This document shows, piece after piece, positions 2,023 through 21,780 of a DNA stretch of 24,577 bases. Within the stretch, counting starts at the first letter, position 1, and every line of letters starts with the position of its first letter. This DNA is from a virus. The stretch spans positions 1-24,577 of the IMG/VR virus record IMGVR_UViG_3300047550_005152, one strand, 5' to 3'. A program made the position numbers and the translations under genes. The notes beneath the pieces were generated by a model. The model did not search any database. It was not told the origin of the DNA and saw only the letters and a program-made list of their open reading frames with translations.

Positions 2023-2042
2023 GGGGTAACACTTGTTACCCC
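2023..2042 (+). promoter_or_regulatory. Perfect 8-bp dyad abutting the lysozyme start
   Basis: GGGGTAAC (2023-2030), a 4-base spacer, then GTTACCCC (2035-2042) form a perfect inverted repeat ending one base before the ATG at 2044. It could be an operator over the promoter's start site or, in a longer transcript, an RNA hairpin restricting ribosome access. There is no T-run after it, so it is not a normal intrinsic terminator. Confidence 0.6.
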
Positions 2043-2043
2043 T

Positions 2044-2673
2044 ATGGATAATTACAAGCAAGCGATTGATTTAATCTGTCGTTACGAAGGCTTTAATGAG
2101 CTTGCTTATGCTGATCCACAGACGGGTGCAGAGCCTTACACTATTGGCTTTGGAACACAATACTATCCTGACGGAAGTGTTGTAAAACGAAACCAATGTT
2201 GTACAAAACATAAAGCCCTGGAGTACCTCATTGATGAACTCACAGTTTTAAACACTGAACTTGAAAAGCTTAACCTGGGGTTAGATGACAGCATGCAGCA
2301 GGCATTGCTTTCATTTTGTCATTCAATAGGCTGGGAAAGTTTTTTGTACAGCGCTATTATTGATTGCCTTGAGGTCGATGATTACGCTGGAGCAACAGAA
2401 GAAATTGCTCGTTGGGTCTTTGATTCTGAGCACCAAGTCATCGGCGGCCTTTTGGAACGCCGCAGAGAAGAGATTAATCTTTTCCTCAGGAATGTTGAAA
2501 CAAAACCCTGGGTAGCTACTGACGTATTGTTACGAGCGTTTAGAAGCTATGGAGCAAAACCACACGAAACTGAAGCAATTCGCAATCTAGAAGCCAGTAT
2601 TAATCCATATTCCTTGGCAGAGTTTGCCAATAGTTTCAAGCTCGAAGAAGCCTCTGCGTATTCAAGTGACTAG
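2044..2673 (+). CDS. GH24 (T4-type) lysozyme
   Basis: 209 residues from ATG 2044; an in-frame TTG at 2020 would place codons inside the dyad and is less likely. Residues 8-40 hold the GH24 signature: catalytic Glu in RYEGF (E15), Asp nine residues later (D24, the same spacing as T4 lysozyme E11/D20), then YTIGFGT with the expected Thr (T33). The helical core continues through LLSFCHSIGWESF and a terminal LLERRREEINLF, typical of the family, to about residue 150. The last ~55 residues are an extra C-terminal segment that may mediate virion or tail attachment. It would hydrolyse the MurNAc-GlcNAc bond of peptidoglycan. A second wall-degrading enzyme is at 11980-12990, so this one may serve entry rather than lysis, but that is not shown. 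Confidence 0.85.
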   Translation: MDNYKQAIDLICRYEGFNELAYADPQTGAEPYTIGFGTQYYPDGSVVKRNQCCTKHKALEYLIDELTVLNTELEKLNLGLDDSMQQALLSFCHSIGWESFLYSAIIDCLEVDDYAGATEEIARWVFDSEHQVIGGLLERRREEINLFLRNVETKPWVATDVLLRAFRSYGAKPHETEAIRNLEASINPYSLAEFANSFKLEEASAYSSD

Positions 2674-2706: not shown

Positions 2707-3003
2707 ATGGAGAACGAAACTACCCGTAAGGAGTTTGAGCTTCCTTTAGAACTGCAGTTTGCTATGCGTAAAGCTGAGCTGCAAACGCAGGAGATGTGTT
2801 GGGACGAACTGCAAGCAGCTTTGCTGAACTTGTATTTTCAACGCATGATGGAGTGGGAAGCCGTCAAAGAAATTATGTGTTCGGAAGGGATTGACATTGA
2901 TTGGGATCTGCCTAGCGAACTGGAGTTAAGTGAACTCGCCCTGGCTTGTATGCAGGACGAGTCAGATGATGACGACGACTTAAACTACGCTCATCCTTTT
3001 TGA
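2707..3003 (+). CDS. nblA: NblA-like phycobilisome degradation adaptor with acidic C-terminal tail
   Basis: 98 residues. Residues 10-58 match the NblA/Ycf18 pattern: a start like FELPLELQFAMR (family: L..EQQF.LR), then AELQTQEM and LLNLYFQRMMEWEAVKEIM, the two-helix region. NblA proteins dimerise, bind phycobilisomes and the Clp chaperone, and direct the antenna to proteolysis. Cellular NblA is about 60 residues; here residues 61-98 add an acidic tail with a run of Asp (DESDDDDD). Phage-encoded nblA is known from the freshwater cyanophages Ma-LMM01 and PaV-LD and has been reported in an uncultured marine cyanophage. The 3' end overlaps the convergent DUF3310 gene by 13 bases. Identification is by pattern only. 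Confidence 0.72.
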   Translation: MENETTRKEFELPLELQFAMRKAELQTQEMCWDELQAALLNLYFQRMMEWEAVKEIMCSEGIDIDWDLPSELELSELALACMQDESDDDDDLNYAHPF

Positions 3004-3317
3004 GCTTCGTCTAATTGAATAAGGCGATCTAAATACCACTGAGCTTTTTTCAGTGATTCGGTACCGCCTTTGTGTTTTTCACGCCAAAGATATTTAGCAA
3101 TATTTCCTTTTAAATATCCACGGAACTCTTCTAGAGTTTGCTGGGCTTCAATTGCTTCAATGCATTCAATGCCGCCATCAGTGTAATGCGAGGGATGATT
3201 TACAACATCCTCTTTAATTATGGGAGTTGTTTCAAGAGGTTTGATTGTAACCCAGGGGACAGGACAAACGCCATCTACACACCCATTGGTTTCTTCAACA
3301 GGGGAAAACATGTCCAT
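2991..3317 (-). CDS. DUF3310 protein
   Basis: 108 residues. After a ~37-residue Pro/Val-rich leader, the DUF3310 core begins at VNHPSHYTDGGIECIEAIEA and continues through FRGYLKGNIAKYLWREKHKGG to LKKAQWYLDRLI, very close to the family consensus. DUF3310 is widespread in phages and sometimes annotated as nucleotide-kinase-like, but no activity is established. The gene converges on nblA with a 13-base stop-side overlap. It belongs to the leftward block that also contains dCTP deaminase, which fits loosely with nucleotide metabolism. Confidence 0.88.
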   Translation of the reverse strand: MDMFSPVEETNGCVDGVCPVPWVTIKPLETTPIIKEDVVNHPSHYTDGGIECIEAIEAQQTLEEFRGYLKGNIAKYLWREKHKGGTESLKKAQWYLDRLIQLDEAQKG

Positions 3318-6915: not shown

Positions 6916-8709
6916 GTGGCAAATCGCCGTATTACCGAATTCCCTGCAATAGCAGCGAATGAGATTGTCGACCAGGATGTCATGACCCTGGTCCACGTTT
7001 TTGAGGTAGACCCTTCACTGCGCAACAAAAAGATTACATTTTCTCAATTCAGAGATTACTTAGATCTGTACTATGCACCAGGTAGCGGCGCTTTAATTAG
7101 CGGCAACGTTACCATCACAGGAAATCTAACTGTATCTGGCAACTCTAGTTTTAATACGGTAACTGCATCTGGGCTTAGTACCTTTAGTGGCATCCTTGTT
7201 CAGAACAACGCAACAGTCAGTGGAACCATTAGCGGCACCACTTTAACCGGGACGTATGTTCAAGGCAGCCTAGTTAATGCGGTTACTGGTACCTTCACAA
7301 CCCTTGCTACAGGTGCAACTGCATCGTTCCCAACAGGAAACTTTACGAGTCTTACAGGAACCACAACAACTGGTGTCAGTGCGTTTTTTACAAACGGTAC
7401 GTTTACCAACGTAACAGGAACAACGTTTACTGGAACAACTGTTGCAGCTACTACAGGAACTTTCCAAGTACTTGGTACGCCAATTCTTGACGTCAGCGGA
7501 AATTTGTCTGTTGCAAGTGGCTTAACTGTCACAGGAACTGCTCAATTTGCAAACGGTGTTCGAGTTACTGGGACACTTTCAGGAACAACAGTTACTGGAA
7601 CTACAGCACAGTTTTCAACTGTTACAGGCATTTCAGGTGTATTTACTACGCAGGTATCGGGTAACACCATTACCGGAAATACGCTTTTAGTTTCAAATGC
7701 AACAGGTGTTTCGGGAACCTTTACATCTAGAGTATCAGGCGCAACCGTAACAGGCAATACAGGATCTTTTGGAACAGTAACTGGCATCTCTGGTGTCTTT
7801 ACCCAGGTTCTTTCTGGTCAGACAATTACAGGAGAGACTGGGAACTTTGGAACAGTTACGGGAGTTTCAGGCGTCTTTACTACTTTATCTGGGGCAACAG
7901 TTACAGGAAACACTGTAAACGCAGGGATTGTTACTGCAGTTACTGGTAATTTTGGTCGCGTATCAGGGACAACTGTAACAGGAAATGCGGGTCAGTTTAC
8001 TTCTGTTACAGGTGGCACTCTTATTGGAACCACTAGCATTTCAGGAGCAACTGTCACTGGAGATGCGGGTCAATTTACTTCTGTTACAGGCATTACTGTT
8101 GTCGGTACAACTAGTGTTTCAGGTACAACAATAACAGGTAACACAGTACTTGCAACTAATTTAACAGGACAAGTAGGTTCTTTTACAACGAGTATTTCCG
8201 GCGCAACAATTACTGGCAACAGTGTTTTAAGTACGTCGGGAAGGTTTCAAAATATCAGTGGTTTAGTTATTACCGGCGACACAATGCAAGCCGGATTAAT
8301 TTCTGCTGTTTCAGGTGTTTTTACAAATATTGTTTTTGTTAATACGGTTGTTTCTGGTAACTTATCTGTACTAGGAACTGGTATTTTTTCCACTGGAGGA
8401 ATCATTTCTTCCGGCTTAATTAGTGGAAGCAGTGTTACGGCACCAACAGGAACATTTACAACTCTTTCTGGAACAAGTGGTACTTTTGTTTCGCTAACAG
8501 GGACAACAACCACAGGTGTAACCGCAACATTCACAACTGTTTCCGGCGTAACAGTCACTGGTGCGACCGGTACGTTTACCAATATCACTGGCAGTACGCT
8601 TAGGGTTACAACACCCTCTGGTGCAACACCTGCCATTGTTTGTTCTGGTGTTGTTTCAGGCAGCACAAGCGGATTTGTAATCCAAGGTCCGTTAATTATT
8701 CTTCCTTGA
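6916..8709 (+). CDS. Tail fibre-like protein with long Thr/Gly/Val repeat array
   Basis: 597 residues from GTG 6916. The N-terminus (MANRRITEFPAIAANEIVDQ ... NKKITFSQFRDYLDLYYAP, to about residue 56) resembles the particle-attachment end of cyanophage fibre-like proteins. Nearly all the rest is a repeat array built on ..SGxTVTGxxxxFxxVTGxSGVFT.., with clear units of about 25-26 residues in the middle (for example SGATVTGNTGSFGTVTG). Such repeats form trimeric beta-rich shafts. The end, GFVIQGPLIILP, carries no chaperone domain, unlike the neighbouring fibre. It likely contributes to the host-binding apparatus. Long antisense open frames here are a by-product of the repeats. Confidence 0.85.
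   Translation: MANRRITEFPAIAANEIVDQDVMTLVHVFEVDPSLRNKKITFSQFRDYLDLYYAPGSGALISGNVTITGNLTVSGNSSFNTVTASGLSTFSGILVQNNATVSGTISGTTLTGTYVQGSLVNAVTGTFTTLATGATASFPTGNFTSLTGTTTTGVSAFFTNGTFTNVTGTTFTGTTVAATTGTFQVLGTPILDVSGNLSVASGLTVTGTAQFANGVRVTGTLSGTTVTGTTAQFSTVTGISGVFTTQVSGNTITGNTLLVSNATGVSGTFTSRVSGATVTGNTGSFGTVTGISGVFTQVLSGQTITGETGNFGTVTGVSGVFTTLSGATVTGNTVNAGIVTAVTGNFGRVSGTTVTGNAGQFTSVTGGTLIGTTSISGATVTGDAGQFTSVTGITVVGTTSVSGTTITGNTVLATNLTGQVGSFTTSISGATITGNSVLSTSGRFQNISGLVITGDTMQAGLISAVSGVFTNIVFVNTVVSGNLSVLGTGIFSTGGIISSGLISGSSVTAPTGTFTTLSGTSGTFVSLTGTTTTGVTATFTTVSGVTVTGATGTFTNITGSTLRVTTPSGATPAIVCSGVVSGSTSGFVIQGPLIILP
7540..8290 (+). repeat. Coding tandem repeat array (degenerate, ~75-78 bp units)
   Basis: Within the fibre gene, imperfect units of about 25-26 codons recur, each with a TCAGGNNCAACNGTNACAGG-like core followed by an F..VTG..GVF-type segment. 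Units differ at synonymous and non-synonymous positions, so the array is old or under selection for sequence variety. Boundaries are approximate. Confidence 0.6.
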
Positions 8710-8742: not shown

Positions 8743-10797
8743 ATGACTTACGGAACTATTAAGGTTGATACGGTTACTTTTACCAATGATGGTGTTGATA
8801 AGAGCGTTACGCTTTCTGGTTTAGTTCAGAATCCTACTTTTAGCGGTAACGTAACCGTCACTGGCACTCTTTCAGGTGTTACCGTAACTGGTACGACAGC
8901 TAACTTTACGAGCGGTAATTTTACTAATATTAGTGGCGGTACTCATACTATTACATCGGGTGTATTTGCGGCAGGTAGTGCAGCAAGCCCTTCGATTACA
9001 TTTACGGGTGATTTAAATACCGGTATTTACTCACCCGGCGCAGACCAAGTAGCCATCAGCACTGGTGGGTCTGGCAGGTTGTTCGTGGATGCGAGTGGGC
9101 GCGTTGGTGTTGGCAGTGCACCATCGGTTGGGAATGGTATTCACGCAACAATCAACACTAACAACTATGGGACTGCGCTTGTTTTACAAAATGCCAATGT
9201 CAATGGCTGGGCTGCAGAAATGCAGTTTCTTGGAATAACTACAACAGATACTCAAGCAAAGATCGGAGCGCTTGCAACCGGTCCAGGTTCAAATTCCGGC
9301 GCATTGGCTTTTTATACGGCAAATGCAGGTTCGTATTTAGAACGCCTGCGCATTACATCAGCAGGGCTCGTGGGTATAGGGACTAGTTCGCCCGCTTCGT
9401 TACTGTCGGTTGTAAGAGCAGCGGAAGGTACTTCGCTAGAGGCGTTGCGACTTGTAAACGAATCTCCAAACCAACGAAACACTAGTTCTGTCTACATCGG
9501 CATGTATGGCTCAAATGAGGCATACGAACGGGCACGTATTCTCTGTGGCAATCCTACCGATTTTGACGGCAACAACGGGTTCCTGTCTTTTTGGACAAGA
9601 AACGCTGGAACTCTTGCAGAAAAAGTTCGTATCGATAACGCAGGCCGCGTAGGGATTGGCACTACGACGCCTCAGCACTTACTTGATTGCACAAGCATTG
9701 GGCGATTCACAGGCAACACTAACAGTGCAGCCTCTGGAGCTGGCATTGAAATTGGTTACGACTCTGGTAATACCACTGGATTTATTCAGTCCTACAACAG
9801 GGGATCTTCCACGTATCTTTCTACTGCAGTGGATGGGTCAGATGTTCGGTTTAAAACTAGCAGCACCGAACGTGCCCGCATCGACAGCTCCGGCAGGCTC
9901 CTAGTGGGCACGTCTGATGGGTCTGGCGGTGTAAGCAAACTGGTAGTTCAAGGTGCATCAAACGGTTCTGCTGTTGGTGTTGCGCAGATCTCTTACAACG
10001 GATTGGCTTCTGCAGGGTTTGGGGCTGGGACTGACATTGGTTATTTGCGTTTTACTGACCAAGGCAGTAACTCAGGTGTATTCGCCCAGATAACAGCTAC
10101 CGCCGATGCGACCAGTGGGGCAAATGACTACCCAGGTAGGCTGGTGTTCTCCACTACTGCGGATGGGGCAAGTTCTCCGACGGAGCGGATGAGGATTGGA
10201 CAGAACGGTTATATCCAATGCTCAGAAACTGGTACTTACAGTCCAGATGGAGGATCTGTTTGGCATAAATTCTATCAGTCTGTTAATGAGCGTTGCCTGC
10301 AAACATATAACACAGCCGGAACATTTACAAATTATGCTTTAACGCAATATATAGCAGCAGGCGGCGGTACTGGGTCCGGCTTTGCGTCTGGTTTCAGCGA
10401 CAGCGGGTCCATCCAGCGATACATAATCTTCTCAAACGGAAACATCCAAAATATTAACAACAGCTACGGCGCAATTTCTGATTTAAAACTGAAAGAAAAT
10501 ATTGTTGATGCGTCTGAGCAATGGAATGACATCAAAAACCTTCGCGTTAGAAAATACAATCTTAAGCAAGGTGGAGCGCACACCCAGATTGGCGTGATTG
10601 CGCAGGAAATTGAGCTTGTTTCTCCTGGTCTTGTTTATGAAACAACTGACCGCGACACAGATGGCAACGACCTTGGCACCGTCACCAAGAGCGTGAACTA
10701 CTCAGTGCTCTACATGAAAGCAGTCAAGGCGCTGCAGGAAGCAATGGAGCGCATCGAAACCCTTGAGGCCAAAGTTGCAGCTCTTGAAAGCGCGTAG
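8743..10797 (+). CDS. Tail fibre with C-terminal S74 self-cleaving chaperone
   Basis: 684 residues. The first ~70 (MTYGTIKVDTVTFTNDGVDK, then SGNVTVTGTLSGVTVTG) resemble the neighbour's shaft repeats. The middle has the GIYSPGADQVAISTGG segment and at least four modules of (E)RxRI...G(R/L)VGIGT...P type, common in S74 fibres. Residues 579-684 are the peptidase S74 intramolecular chaperone: SDLKLKENI with the expected Ser579/Lys584 dyad, then IGVIAQEIE, then a coiled coil ending ALESA. The chaperone drives trimerisation and then cuts itself off just before Ser579, leaving the mature fibre. The middle region (about 9050-10200) is visibly more G/C-rich than the repeat gene before it, suggesting a swapped receptor-binding module. 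Confidence 0.92.
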   Translation: MTYGTIKVDTVTFTNDGVDKSVTLSGLVQNPTFSGNVTVTGTLSGVTVTGTTANFTSGNFTNISGGTHTITSGVFAAGSAASPSITFTGDLNTGIYSPGADQVAISTGGSGRLFVDASGRVGVGSAPSVGNGIHATINTNNYGTALVLQNANVNGWAAEMQFLGITTTDTQAKIGALATGPGSNSGALAFYTANAGSYLERLRITSAGLVGIGTSSPASLLSVVRAAEGTSLEALRLVNESPNQRNTSSVYIGMYGSNEAYERARILCGNPTDFDGNNGFLSFWTRNAGTLAEKVRIDNAGRVGIGTTTPQHLLDCTSIGRFTGNTNSAASGAGIEIGYDSGNTTGFIQSYNRGSSTYLSTAVDGSDVRFKTSSTERARIDSSGRLLVGTSDGSGGVSKLVVQGASNGSAVGVAQISYNGLASAGFGAGTDIGYLRFTDQGSNSGVFAQITATADATSGANDYPGRLVFSTTADGASSPTERMRIGQNGYIQCSETGTYSPDGGSVWHKFYQSVNERCLQTYNTAGTFTNYALTQYIAAGGGTGSGFASGFSDSGSIQRYIIFSNGNIQNINNSYGAISDLKLKENIVDASEQWNDIKNLRVRKYNLKQGGAHTQIGVIAQEIELVSPGLVYETTDRDTDGNDLGTVTKSVNYSVLYMKAVKALQEAMERIETLEAKVAALESA

Positions 10798-15809: not shown

Positions 15810-17072
15810 TCACTTACCAAGCTTCCTAGTCCGTGTGCGTTCCTTTCGCTCCTTCTTTTTTTCTTTAGGTTCTGCCACAGTTTCAGGCTCTTGGGACAAC
15901 ACCTCCTCAAATACTCCACCAAACTGAGACGCAACTGTGTCCCATGAGAATTGAGGATCAGTTACGCGTTTGTAACAAGCCTCTGCAACTTCTTTTTCAA
16001 TGTCAGGATTTTCATATAAATAGTCAAGTAATTCCGTGAGATGTTCTGCAGAAGGACATGGCATTTCTCTCGAATAATTGGTATCCACATCAACGTGGTC
16101 ACAACGAATTAATTGACCGTAGCCTTCAAAAATTTCTCGGCACGATGTATGGTCAGGAACAATTTGAGCAACACGACATGCGGCGTGTTCAAAGTTGACA
16201 AGACCCCAGCCTTCGCCTTTGCAGGTATTAACACCCACATCACATGCGTTATAGATGTCATTTAGCATTTCTACCGACACATTTGGTGGATTAGCTTGGT
16301 TTGACGTCATGATGATCCTTCCGTTTGGATCAATACCAACACGTGTCATCTCACGTGCAAACACCTCCATGATGTCCCAGCCCTGGTCCTTAAGACCCAT
16401 GTGCAGGTACAACATGGCTTCAGGTCTATCAACGGCAAAATCAGCAAATGCTTTGATTGTGATGTCAATCCGTTTACGGAATTGATTGCGGTTACCATTG
16501 AAAACAATGTAGCTATCTTGTTTAAGGCCCAAGCGTTGCCGTGCTTCTGCTTTATCGACAGGATAGAACTGCCCTGGTGTTACCCCATGCGGAATAACAG
16601 TCACAGGCTTCGTAATACCACCACGCATAAATTCATATGCACCAAATTCTGTGTATGAAATAACTGCATCCCATTCATTGGCTGTATCTGCTAGGCAACC
16701 GGTCCATGCATACGAATCCATGGGTGCGTAGCCAACAAATTTAAATCTGCCGGCCTTGTGCAAATCTCTAATTTGGTTGTATTGCTCATTAATAATCCAC
16801 ATATCATTGATAGTGAACACAATGTCAGGTTGTTCACGTTCAACGATTTCACGAATGCGTTGCTCGCCAAAGGGCGCAGTTTGATGCCGATTGGAGGACG
16901 GATACATTTTGTACTCCTGCTGCAGAGGAGTTGGATCACCCCACCAGTTGTTACCTAAAACAACAATTTCAAAGTCGTCTTTTAGACGAGAGATAACATT
17001 CTCGGTTACACGGGCAAACCCAGTCATGGCAACAATGTCACCACACCACAAAAGTTTTGCTTTCTTAGACAT
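15810..17072 (-). CDS. GT4-family glycosyltransferase
   Basis: 420 residues from ATG 17072; a longer frame to 17105 would run through the dyad. It begins MSKKAKLLWCGDIVAMTGFA, the N-terminal Rossmann fold with a Gly-rich loop. FNGNRNQFRKRID (191-203) is the donor-phosphate-binding region. GEGWGLVNFE (286-295) gives the E-x7-E motif (Glu287/Glu295) of retaining group 1 transferases. The last ~30 residues are a Lys/Glu/Arg-rich tail (KEKKKERKERTRTRKLGK). It would move a sugar from a nucleotide donor to an unknown acceptor, such as modified phage DNA, a virion protein or host lipopolysaccharide. It follows speD after 20 bases. Confidence 0.88.
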   Translation of the reverse strand: MSKKAKLLWCGDIVAMTGFARVTENVISRLKDDFEIVVLGNNWWGDPTPLQQEYKMYPSSNRHQTAPFGEQRIREIVEREQPDIVFTINDMWIINEQYNQIRDLHKAGRFKFVGYAPMDSYAWTGCLADTANEWDAVISYTEFGAYEFMRGGITKPVTVIPHGVTPGQFYPVDKAEARQRLGLKQDSYIVFNGNRNQFRKRIDITIKAFADFAVDRPEAMLYLHMGLKDQGWDIMEVFAREMTRVGIDPNGRIIMTSNQANPPNVSVEMLNDIYNACDVGVNTCKGEGWGLVNFEHAACRVAQIVPDHTSCREIFEGYGQLIRCDHVDVDTNYSREMPCPSAEHLTELLDYLYENPDIEKEVAEACYKRVTDPQFSWDTVASQFGGVFEEVLSQEPETVAEPKEKKKERKERTRTRKLGK

Positions 17073-17095
17073 TAGATCGGAATAACTCCGATCTA
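17073..17095 (-). promoter_or_regulatory. Perfect 9-bp dyad between speD stop and GT start
   Basis: TAGATCGGA (17073-17081), a 5-base spacer, then TCCGATCTA (17087-17095) form a perfect inverted repeat. It includes the speD stop codon and ends exactly where the glycosyltransferase ATG begins (17072). There is no T-run, so it is probably an RNA hairpin affecting translation or processing between the two genes, or an operator. Confidence 0.6.
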
Positions 17096-17455
17096 CTCTA
17101 CACAATTAACGGGTTCAATTGATCGTACAAGTTCTTTTTCATCTGCTGTTTCTGCGCCTAACTTCTTTTTTAAAAACTCTGCAGCCTTATGGGTAAGCGT
17201 CGTATCTCCACAGGTATAGAGATCAACTGCCGCATACCCTACTTCAGGCCACGTATGAATAGATGCATGCGATTCCGATAGGAGTGCTAACAGGGTCACG
17301 CCTTGCGGTTCAAATTTCTCGCCAAAGATACGTAAGATATTTGCTTTTGCTAAAACAAGAGAAGCTTCCAGCAAATGCTGGAGCTCCTCATAGTTATTTA
17401 AAAGGTTCTGATCGCAACCATACAGGTCAAGGATCAGGTGACGCCCGTTACTCAA
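17093..17455 (-). CDS. speD: S-adenosylmethionine decarboxylase (prokaryotic class 1B)
   Basis: 120 residues, the usual length for the short bacterial proenzyme. It starts at TTG (17455), and the family's opening GRHLILDLYGC follows at once. The cleavage site is LLSESHASIHTWPE: the chain would cut between Glu61 and Ser62, Ser62 becoming the pyruvoyl cofactor. His67 and Cys82 (YTCGD) match the processing His and the catalytic Cys, one position off the Thermotoga numbering (63/68/83). The product, decarboxylated SAM, is the aminopropyl donor for spermidine. speD is a known cyanophage accessory gene. Start and upstream stop overlap as TTGA, so its translation is coupled to the primase-helicase. 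Confidence 0.93.
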   Translation of the reverse strand: MSNGRHLILDLYGCDQNLLNNYEELQHLLEASLVLAKANILRIFGEKFEPQGVTLLALLSESHASIHTWPEVGYAAVDLYTCGDTTLTHKAAEFLKKKLGAETADEKELVRSIEPVNCVE

Positions 17456-21418: not shown

Positions 21419-21541
21419 ATGAAAGAGCCTAATGTGATGGACGGATTCAACTACGCAATCGCTTCGATCCTTGGTGCGATGCTTGTCGTCATTAGCATGG
21501 ATGCCTACTTATTCTTCATGGAAGTCGCATCACGTCAATGA
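21419..21541 (+). CDS. 40-residue membrane microprotein coupled to hli
   Basis: ATG 21419 to TGA 21539-21541. It reads MKEPNVMDGFNYAIASILGA, then a hydrophobic span MLVVISMDAYLFFMEVASRQ. One membrane helix is predicted from about residue 12 to 35, with a short N-terminal part. Its stop overlaps the hli ATG as ATGA. The size and single span recall small photosynthetic-complex subunits, but it matches none I know (not PetN, PetM, PsbT or PsaJ). A membrane partner of the Hli protein is a reasonable guess only. Confidence 0.6.
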   Translation: MKEPNVMDGFNYAIASILGAMLVVISMDAYLFFMEVASRQ

Positions 21542-21780
21542 ACAAATTCCTACTAGGCATCCAAGGGTACGTGTCTTGCTTTGGTTGGATTTTTGTTGCG
21601 ATTTGGCAGTGGATCCTGGAAGCAGCACCTGATCTTAAAATTTGGAAAAGGCACACTGACTTAGGTGATCACTTTTGGTATGCTGAACGTGTTAACGGAC
21701 GCCTTGCGATGTTAGCAATTGCATACATTCTCATCAGATGTTTAACCCATGGCATCAAACTTAACTCGCTTTTATTTTGA
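21538..21780 (+). CDS. hli: High-light-inducible protein (Hli) with N-terminal extension
   Basis: 80 residues. The chlorophyll-binding helix motif is YAERVNGRLAML (48-59), fitting ExxNGRxAM with Glu50, Asn53 and Arg55 as the pigment-contact residues, and continuing IAYILIRCLTHG. Hli proteins bind chlorophyll and carotenoid in thylakoids and protect photosystem assembly; they are common in cyanophages. Residues 4-29 form a second strongly hydrophobic segment (LLGIQGYVSCFGWIFVAIWQ) that typical one-helix Hli proteins lack, followed by a charged linker. Coupled to the upstream microprotein by ATGA; the next gene overlaps its end by 32 bases. Confidence 0.82.
   Translation: MNKFLLGIQGYVSCFGWIFVAIWQWILEAAPDLKIWKRHTDLGDHFWYAERVNGRLAMLAIAYILIRCLTHGIKLNSLLF

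Follow-up and report, generated by a model that had tools for sequence, protein, structure and literature searches.

Introduction

In proteins of the NblA family (PF04485), ClpC binding has been assigned to an N-terminal motif and the binding of phycobiliproteins to a motif near the C-terminus (PMC4103541, citing Karradt 2008 and Bienert 2006). Cellular NblAs, represented in the PDB by 1OJH and 3CS5, form a two-helix hairpin that dimerizes into a four-helix bundle, and those sampled here are 54-67 aa long where the start is clear. NblA genes are also carried by phages. The Microcystis phages Ma-LMM01 and MaMV-DC encode a tailless NblA of 65 aa whose gene adjoins a ribonucleotide reductase gene, and a distant, HHpred-predicted NblA of 54 aa has been assigned in the picocyanobacterial phage S-SCSM1 (QFG06501; L266 28952-29116; PMC9602691). 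Expression or activity has been reported for other phage NblAs (PMC9602691, PMC5780444). A docking signal of another kind is found at the end of bacterial SSB. In E. coli, SSB terminates in DFDDDIPF, a tip onto which other proteins dock, and partner enzymes do so through its terminal IPF (PMC10143822).

The window analyzed in this study is an IMG/VR virus contig of 24,577 bases, and its sole isolate relative is the Synechococcus phage S-EIV1 (KJ410740), whose host is a Synechococcus. S-EIV1-type phages are widespread and made up 3.3% of marine cyanophage content in one survey (PMC5332604). This 2017 survey does not list nblA for the S-EIV1 group, and there is a small chance that the gene was named earlier elsewhere. 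Here, we describe an NblA-like gene of this lineage, whose product joins an NblA-homologous core to a conserved C-terminal extension.

Results

The NblA-like gene is a core gene of the S-EIV1 lineage

The open reading frame at 2707-3003 (+), running from ATG to TGA, was confirmed as a real gene encoding a 98-aa protein. The protein is under strong purifying selection, with a pooled dN/dS of ~0.03 in residues 10-58, 0.06 (0.064) in residues 59-82 and 0.19 in residues 83-98. Its direct orthologue in S-EIV1, AHV82245.1, is labeled "hypothetical protein" in GenBank. The two proteins are 58% identical over residues 1-69, have the same neighbors, and share the acidic tail and the terminal -PF, but the S-EIV1 protein is longer (106 aa) because of a longer linker. 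In addition, the window and S-EIV1 have the same gene order through the lysozyme and dCTP deaminase genes, and elsewhere they have a primase, speD and glycosyltransferase group in common. The NblA-like gene is a gene of the S-EIV1 cyanophage lineage. A PHROGs search gave no family for the protein, the single sequence from the window had no match in NCBIfam, and no cellular relative turned up when GTDB genomes were scanned with the phage family.

Directly upstream, 33 nt away and on the same strand, lies a phage lysozyme/endolysin gene (2032..2673, +; PF00959, E 4e-18). Downstream, a DUF3310 gene (2991..3317, -) is convergent with the NblA-like gene and overlaps it by 13 nt. Among loci picked for having the NblA-like gene, the lysozyme gene was directly upstream on the same strand in 145 of 145, with gaps of 37-110 nt between the tblastn matches, and the convergent DUF3310 neighbor was present on the opposite strand in 155 of 155. 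When contigs were instead picked by an unrelated downstream marker gene, the NblA-like gene was found in all 67 that span the site. It is a core gene of the sampled S-EIV1 lineage, and it is likely to be expressed late, together with the lysis genes.

The preliminary description had grouped this gene with hli and speD as host-manipulation genes, and the presence of both is supported, each with a counterpart in S-EIV1. The speD gene (17093-17455, -; S-adenosylmethionine decarboxylase, PF02675, E 2e-34) adjoins the primase gene, with a Group 1 glycosyltransferase gene beside them (15810-17105, -), and the same trio is found together in S-EIV1. In S-EIV1, the annotated CDS at 9579-9737 covers part of the speD tblastn match only; the match runs on to 9397 in another frame, possibly owing to a frameshift. 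The hli-like gene (21538-21780, +) contains an ERVNGRLAM motif and scores below the Pfam cut-off. Its S-EIV1 homologue (KJ410740 13726-13848; 51% identity over 41 aa) has no annotated CDS. Elsewhere in the window, the region 6916-8709 (+) encodes a 597-aa protein consisting mostly of Thr/Gly/Ser/Val-rich repeats (TGTTVTG-like), which is probably a tail fibre; the long antisense ORFs there are by-products. At the DNA level, the window is similar to known phages only in short stretches (84-94%), e.g., 10579-10788 (+), and in these the matching Synechococcus phage genes are those for tail fibres or endosialidase chaperones.

Residues 9-58 are distantly homologous to NblA

The preliminary description had recognized an NblA pattern in residues 10-58 of the protein. 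Against PF04485, residues 11-57 scored 20.8 bits (E 5.5e-4), so that the single sequence lies below the curated cut-off of 25 bits. At the family level, however, PF04485 matched 32 of 37 diverse homologues at E<=0.01 (best E 1.6e-5). A profile-profile comparison by hhalign between the phage family and 24 NblA sequences (23 cellular and one from a Microcystis phage) gave a probability of 96 and an E value of 3.1e-9 over 52 ungapped columns, and the match to cellular NblA is gapless over 50-52 columns in residues 9-58 (2731..2880, +). In a profile search of the PDB, Anabaena NblA (1OJH) was the best match (E 8e-4), and nothing else fell below 0.1; NblA 3CS5 appeared weakly at E 0.37, and the remaining matches, at E 0.12-0.2, were to unrelated chains. 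With an HMM made from the 24 NblA sequences used above, the window protein scored 29.2 bits. The best of ~30,900 unrelated viral ORFs reached 17.0 bits, and core-shuffled controls reached at most 14.2 bits, with 0 of 22,200 attaining the score of the window protein. Taken together, these comparisons well support the homology of residues 9-58 to NblA, which appears secure at the family level as that of a distant relative.

In a tree of 41 short sequences, the phage clade was monophyletic on a very long branch (3.3 changes per site), and the branching order did not settle its place among cellular NblAs. The S-SCSM1 "NblA" likewise has a very long branch, and the S-EIV1-lineage family is far closer to cellular NblA in sequence than it is.

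The AlphaFold2 monomer model of the window protein contains helices at residues 14-29 and 32-59, corresponding to the NblA two-helix hairpin. In the control, Nostoc NblA, helices were predicted at 9-22 and 27-55, which map to 14-27 and 32-60, and the helix boundaries of the two proteins are equal after the alignment offset of +5. The predicted hairpin and the family-level profile match thus both agree with the NblA assignment made in the preliminary description. A Foldseek/VIA search of the PDB and viral models with the predicted model returned nothing, but this null result carries no weight because the true Nostoc NblA control also failed to retrieve 1OJH.

The putative ClpC-binding end is better conserved than the putative phycobiliprotein-binding end

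The N-terminal motif LPLELQF-AMRKAE (residues 12-24; 2740..2778, +) is near-invariant in the phage family and corresponds to the motif through which NblA reportedly contacts ClpC. Residues L12, L14, E15, Q17, F18 and R21 are held in common with cellular NblA, giving the shared pattern L.LE.QF..R. From here toward the end of helix 2, where the residues differ, similarity to cellular NblA falls from a mean BLOSUM score of 1.69 to 0.48. We take the L51/K53 region of Anabaena NblA to be the C-terminal phycobiliprotein-binding motif. In the phage family, the position of L51 is occupied by I or L, so that the residue type is kept, whereas that of K53 is A, C or E. Since this motif is also not invariant among divergent cellular NblAs, the lost K53 does not exclude membership in the NblA family.

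The presumed protease-contact end therefore seems to be kept better than the phycobiliprotein end, although the gradient is modest and its functional reading is our inference. The preliminary description had suggested that the tail could alter the Clp contact or the target. Considering that the N-terminal ClpC motif is the best kept part and the phycobiliprotein end the most diverged, a changed substrate or partner would be likelier than a changed Clp contact.

A three-part extension ends in a conserved Pro-Phe tip

The remainder of the protein had been described as an Asp/Glu-rich extension, spanning residues 61-98, that ordinary NblA lacks. The tail is indeed absent from the sampled cellular NblAs, which lack a third helix, an acidic linker and a -PF tip, and from the NblAs of Microcystis, Nodularia and S-SCSM1 phages, but only its middle is acidic. 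The segment at residues 59-82 (2881..2952, +), aligned as sE.[IV][DE]I[DE][WF]D.P[TS].[LI]EL.ELA, is conserved and of ordinary amino-acid composition, and a predicted third helix (residues 71-87, AlphaFold2) continues from it. The acidic linker follows at residues 83-92 (2953..2982, +); it varies in length among homologues by indels and is largely disordered by prediction. The protein ends in a Pro-Phe tip (residues 97-98; 2995..3000, +), and 88 of 96 unique homologues end the same way. Nor is the tail a peculiarity of the window gene, since the three-part extension is universal among the lineage homologues examined, which are 94-106 aa long. They thereby depart from the usual NblA size of ~60 aa without an added module, a trait that is typical of the family but does not strictly define it.

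Among the other non-redundant ORFs at these loci, 11 of 3834 end in -PF, and none of them has a comparably acidic tail. Conservation is higher in the tip than in the linker preceding it, and the tip survives the linker indels. We considered that the overlap with the convergent DUF3310 gene might force the -PF ending, and we rejected this explanation: of the 24 variants that have no overlapping downstream gene, 19 still end in -PF, and across homologues the tip is written with seven different codon pairs. Accordingly, the tip is selected at the protein level.

The tip resembles the end of the phage SSB

Of the 129 proteins annotated in S-EIV1, only 2 have a -PF end, namely the NblA-like protein and the SSB AHV82175.1, whose SSB domain was confirmed. 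Both genes were found on 20 further contigs with both products ending in -PF (17, plus 3 found through the SSB gene). On one contig, the NblA-like protein ends in KSFL and the SSB in CFQLF, so that neither has -PF. This SSB (contig 3300006810_000037, L511 1369-2259) may reflect either a real change or a sequencing frameshift, and its sister SSB (L523) ends in DDDNQPF.

The E. coli tip and the NblA-like tail are alike in having an acidic stretch followed by terminal Pro-Phe; they differ in that at least one residue usually separates the acidic stretch from PF in the tail (e.g., LQPF, AHPF). Mimicry of the host SSB tip was rejected because just 1 of 29 cyanobacterial SSBs ends in -PF. The NblA-like protein showed no OB fold or SSB profile (PF00436) and has predicted helices only; it is at most a mimic of the SSB tip and not itself an SSB. 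The match between the tail tip and the phage SSB tip points to a possible docking function that the preliminary description did not contain. The simplest interpretation to draw on this likeness would be an additional docking site that the protein has in common with the phage SSB. Given the shortness of the motif and the relatedness of the genomes, we regard this as a lead and not a demonstration.

Discussion

We consider it probable that the protein is a divergent, phage-lineage-specific ClpC adaptor of the NblA family with a new architecture, and this is the best-supported reading of our results. In this case, the gene would be transcribed late, along with the lysis gene. The hairpin core would dimerize as NblA does, and host ClpC would be docked via the conserved N-terminal LPLExQF motif. 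Phycobilisome (antenna) proteins may then be brought to the Clp protease and presumably degraded, so that late in infection amino acids would be freed and light absorption would be lowered. The C-terminal module, composed of the third helix, the acidic linker and -PF, could form a second docking site for a putative partner and thereby set the adaptor's place or target. The long branch and the sub-cut-off score of the single sequence count against an adaptor of the NblA type, as do its lack of an NCBIfam match and the loss of the K53 counterpart at the end of helix 2. The branch and the score, together with a gene position that always follows the lysozyme gene directly, would fit an NblA-resembling hairpin with another function unrelated to phycobilisomes, such as a lysis regulator. 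We regard this as decidedly improbable, as the profile similarity is specific to the sequence and was matched by none of the shuffled controls, and the protein is acidic with no holin-type hydrophobic stretch.

The readings that remain differ in what they make of the extension. On the one hand, the protein may be an ordinary phage NblA, in which the extension tunes stability, solubility or substrate choice (e.g., for phycoerythrin-rich picocyanobacterial antennae) and the likeness to SSB is coincidental. The NblA-like core, the conserved extension helix and the faster change of the tail (dN/dS 0.19 vs. 0.03) agree with this rather unlikely explanation. Tuning alone, however, predicts neither that the tip outlasts linker indels nor that it is better kept than the linker. 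On the other hand, the adaptor may have been retargeted. The core would still bind ClpC, but the SSB-mimic tail would dock phage or host readers of the tip, such as polymerase, primase-helicase or nucleases. Instead of working chiefly on antennae, the adaptor would then recruit Clp to proteins of DNA metabolism or be retained where replication takes place. The known docking role of the bacterial tip speaks for such retargeting, as do the restriction of -PF ends in S-EIV1 to these two proteins, the paired endings on the further contigs with the lone non-PF tip accompanying a non-PF SSB, the retention of the tip through linker indels and codon changes, and the divergence of the putative phycobiliprotein-binding end. 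Nevertheless, the genomes are related, so the pairing is not independent and the contrast is a single one, weakened by the sister SSB that does end in -PF. Moreover, two residues make a small motif, and the rarity of -PF among cyanobacterial SSBs makes host partners doubtful. We therefore consider retargeting unlikely. Its more specific form, in which an NblA-type Clp-adaptor core is fused to a mimic of the phage's own SSB tip and acts as a two-ended adaptor linking ClpC proteolysis with phage DNA-replication proteins or sites, seems quite unlikely to us.

Under the favored reading of a divergent NblA-family ClpC adaptor, the distribution of the gene has a direct consequence. If this core gene encodes an active NblA, antenna proteolysis would be standard across a whole cyanophage lineage and not the work of a sporadic auxiliary gene. 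Its conserved tail would further provide a naturally occurring example of a Clp adaptor that has been extended, possibly by a second docking signal.
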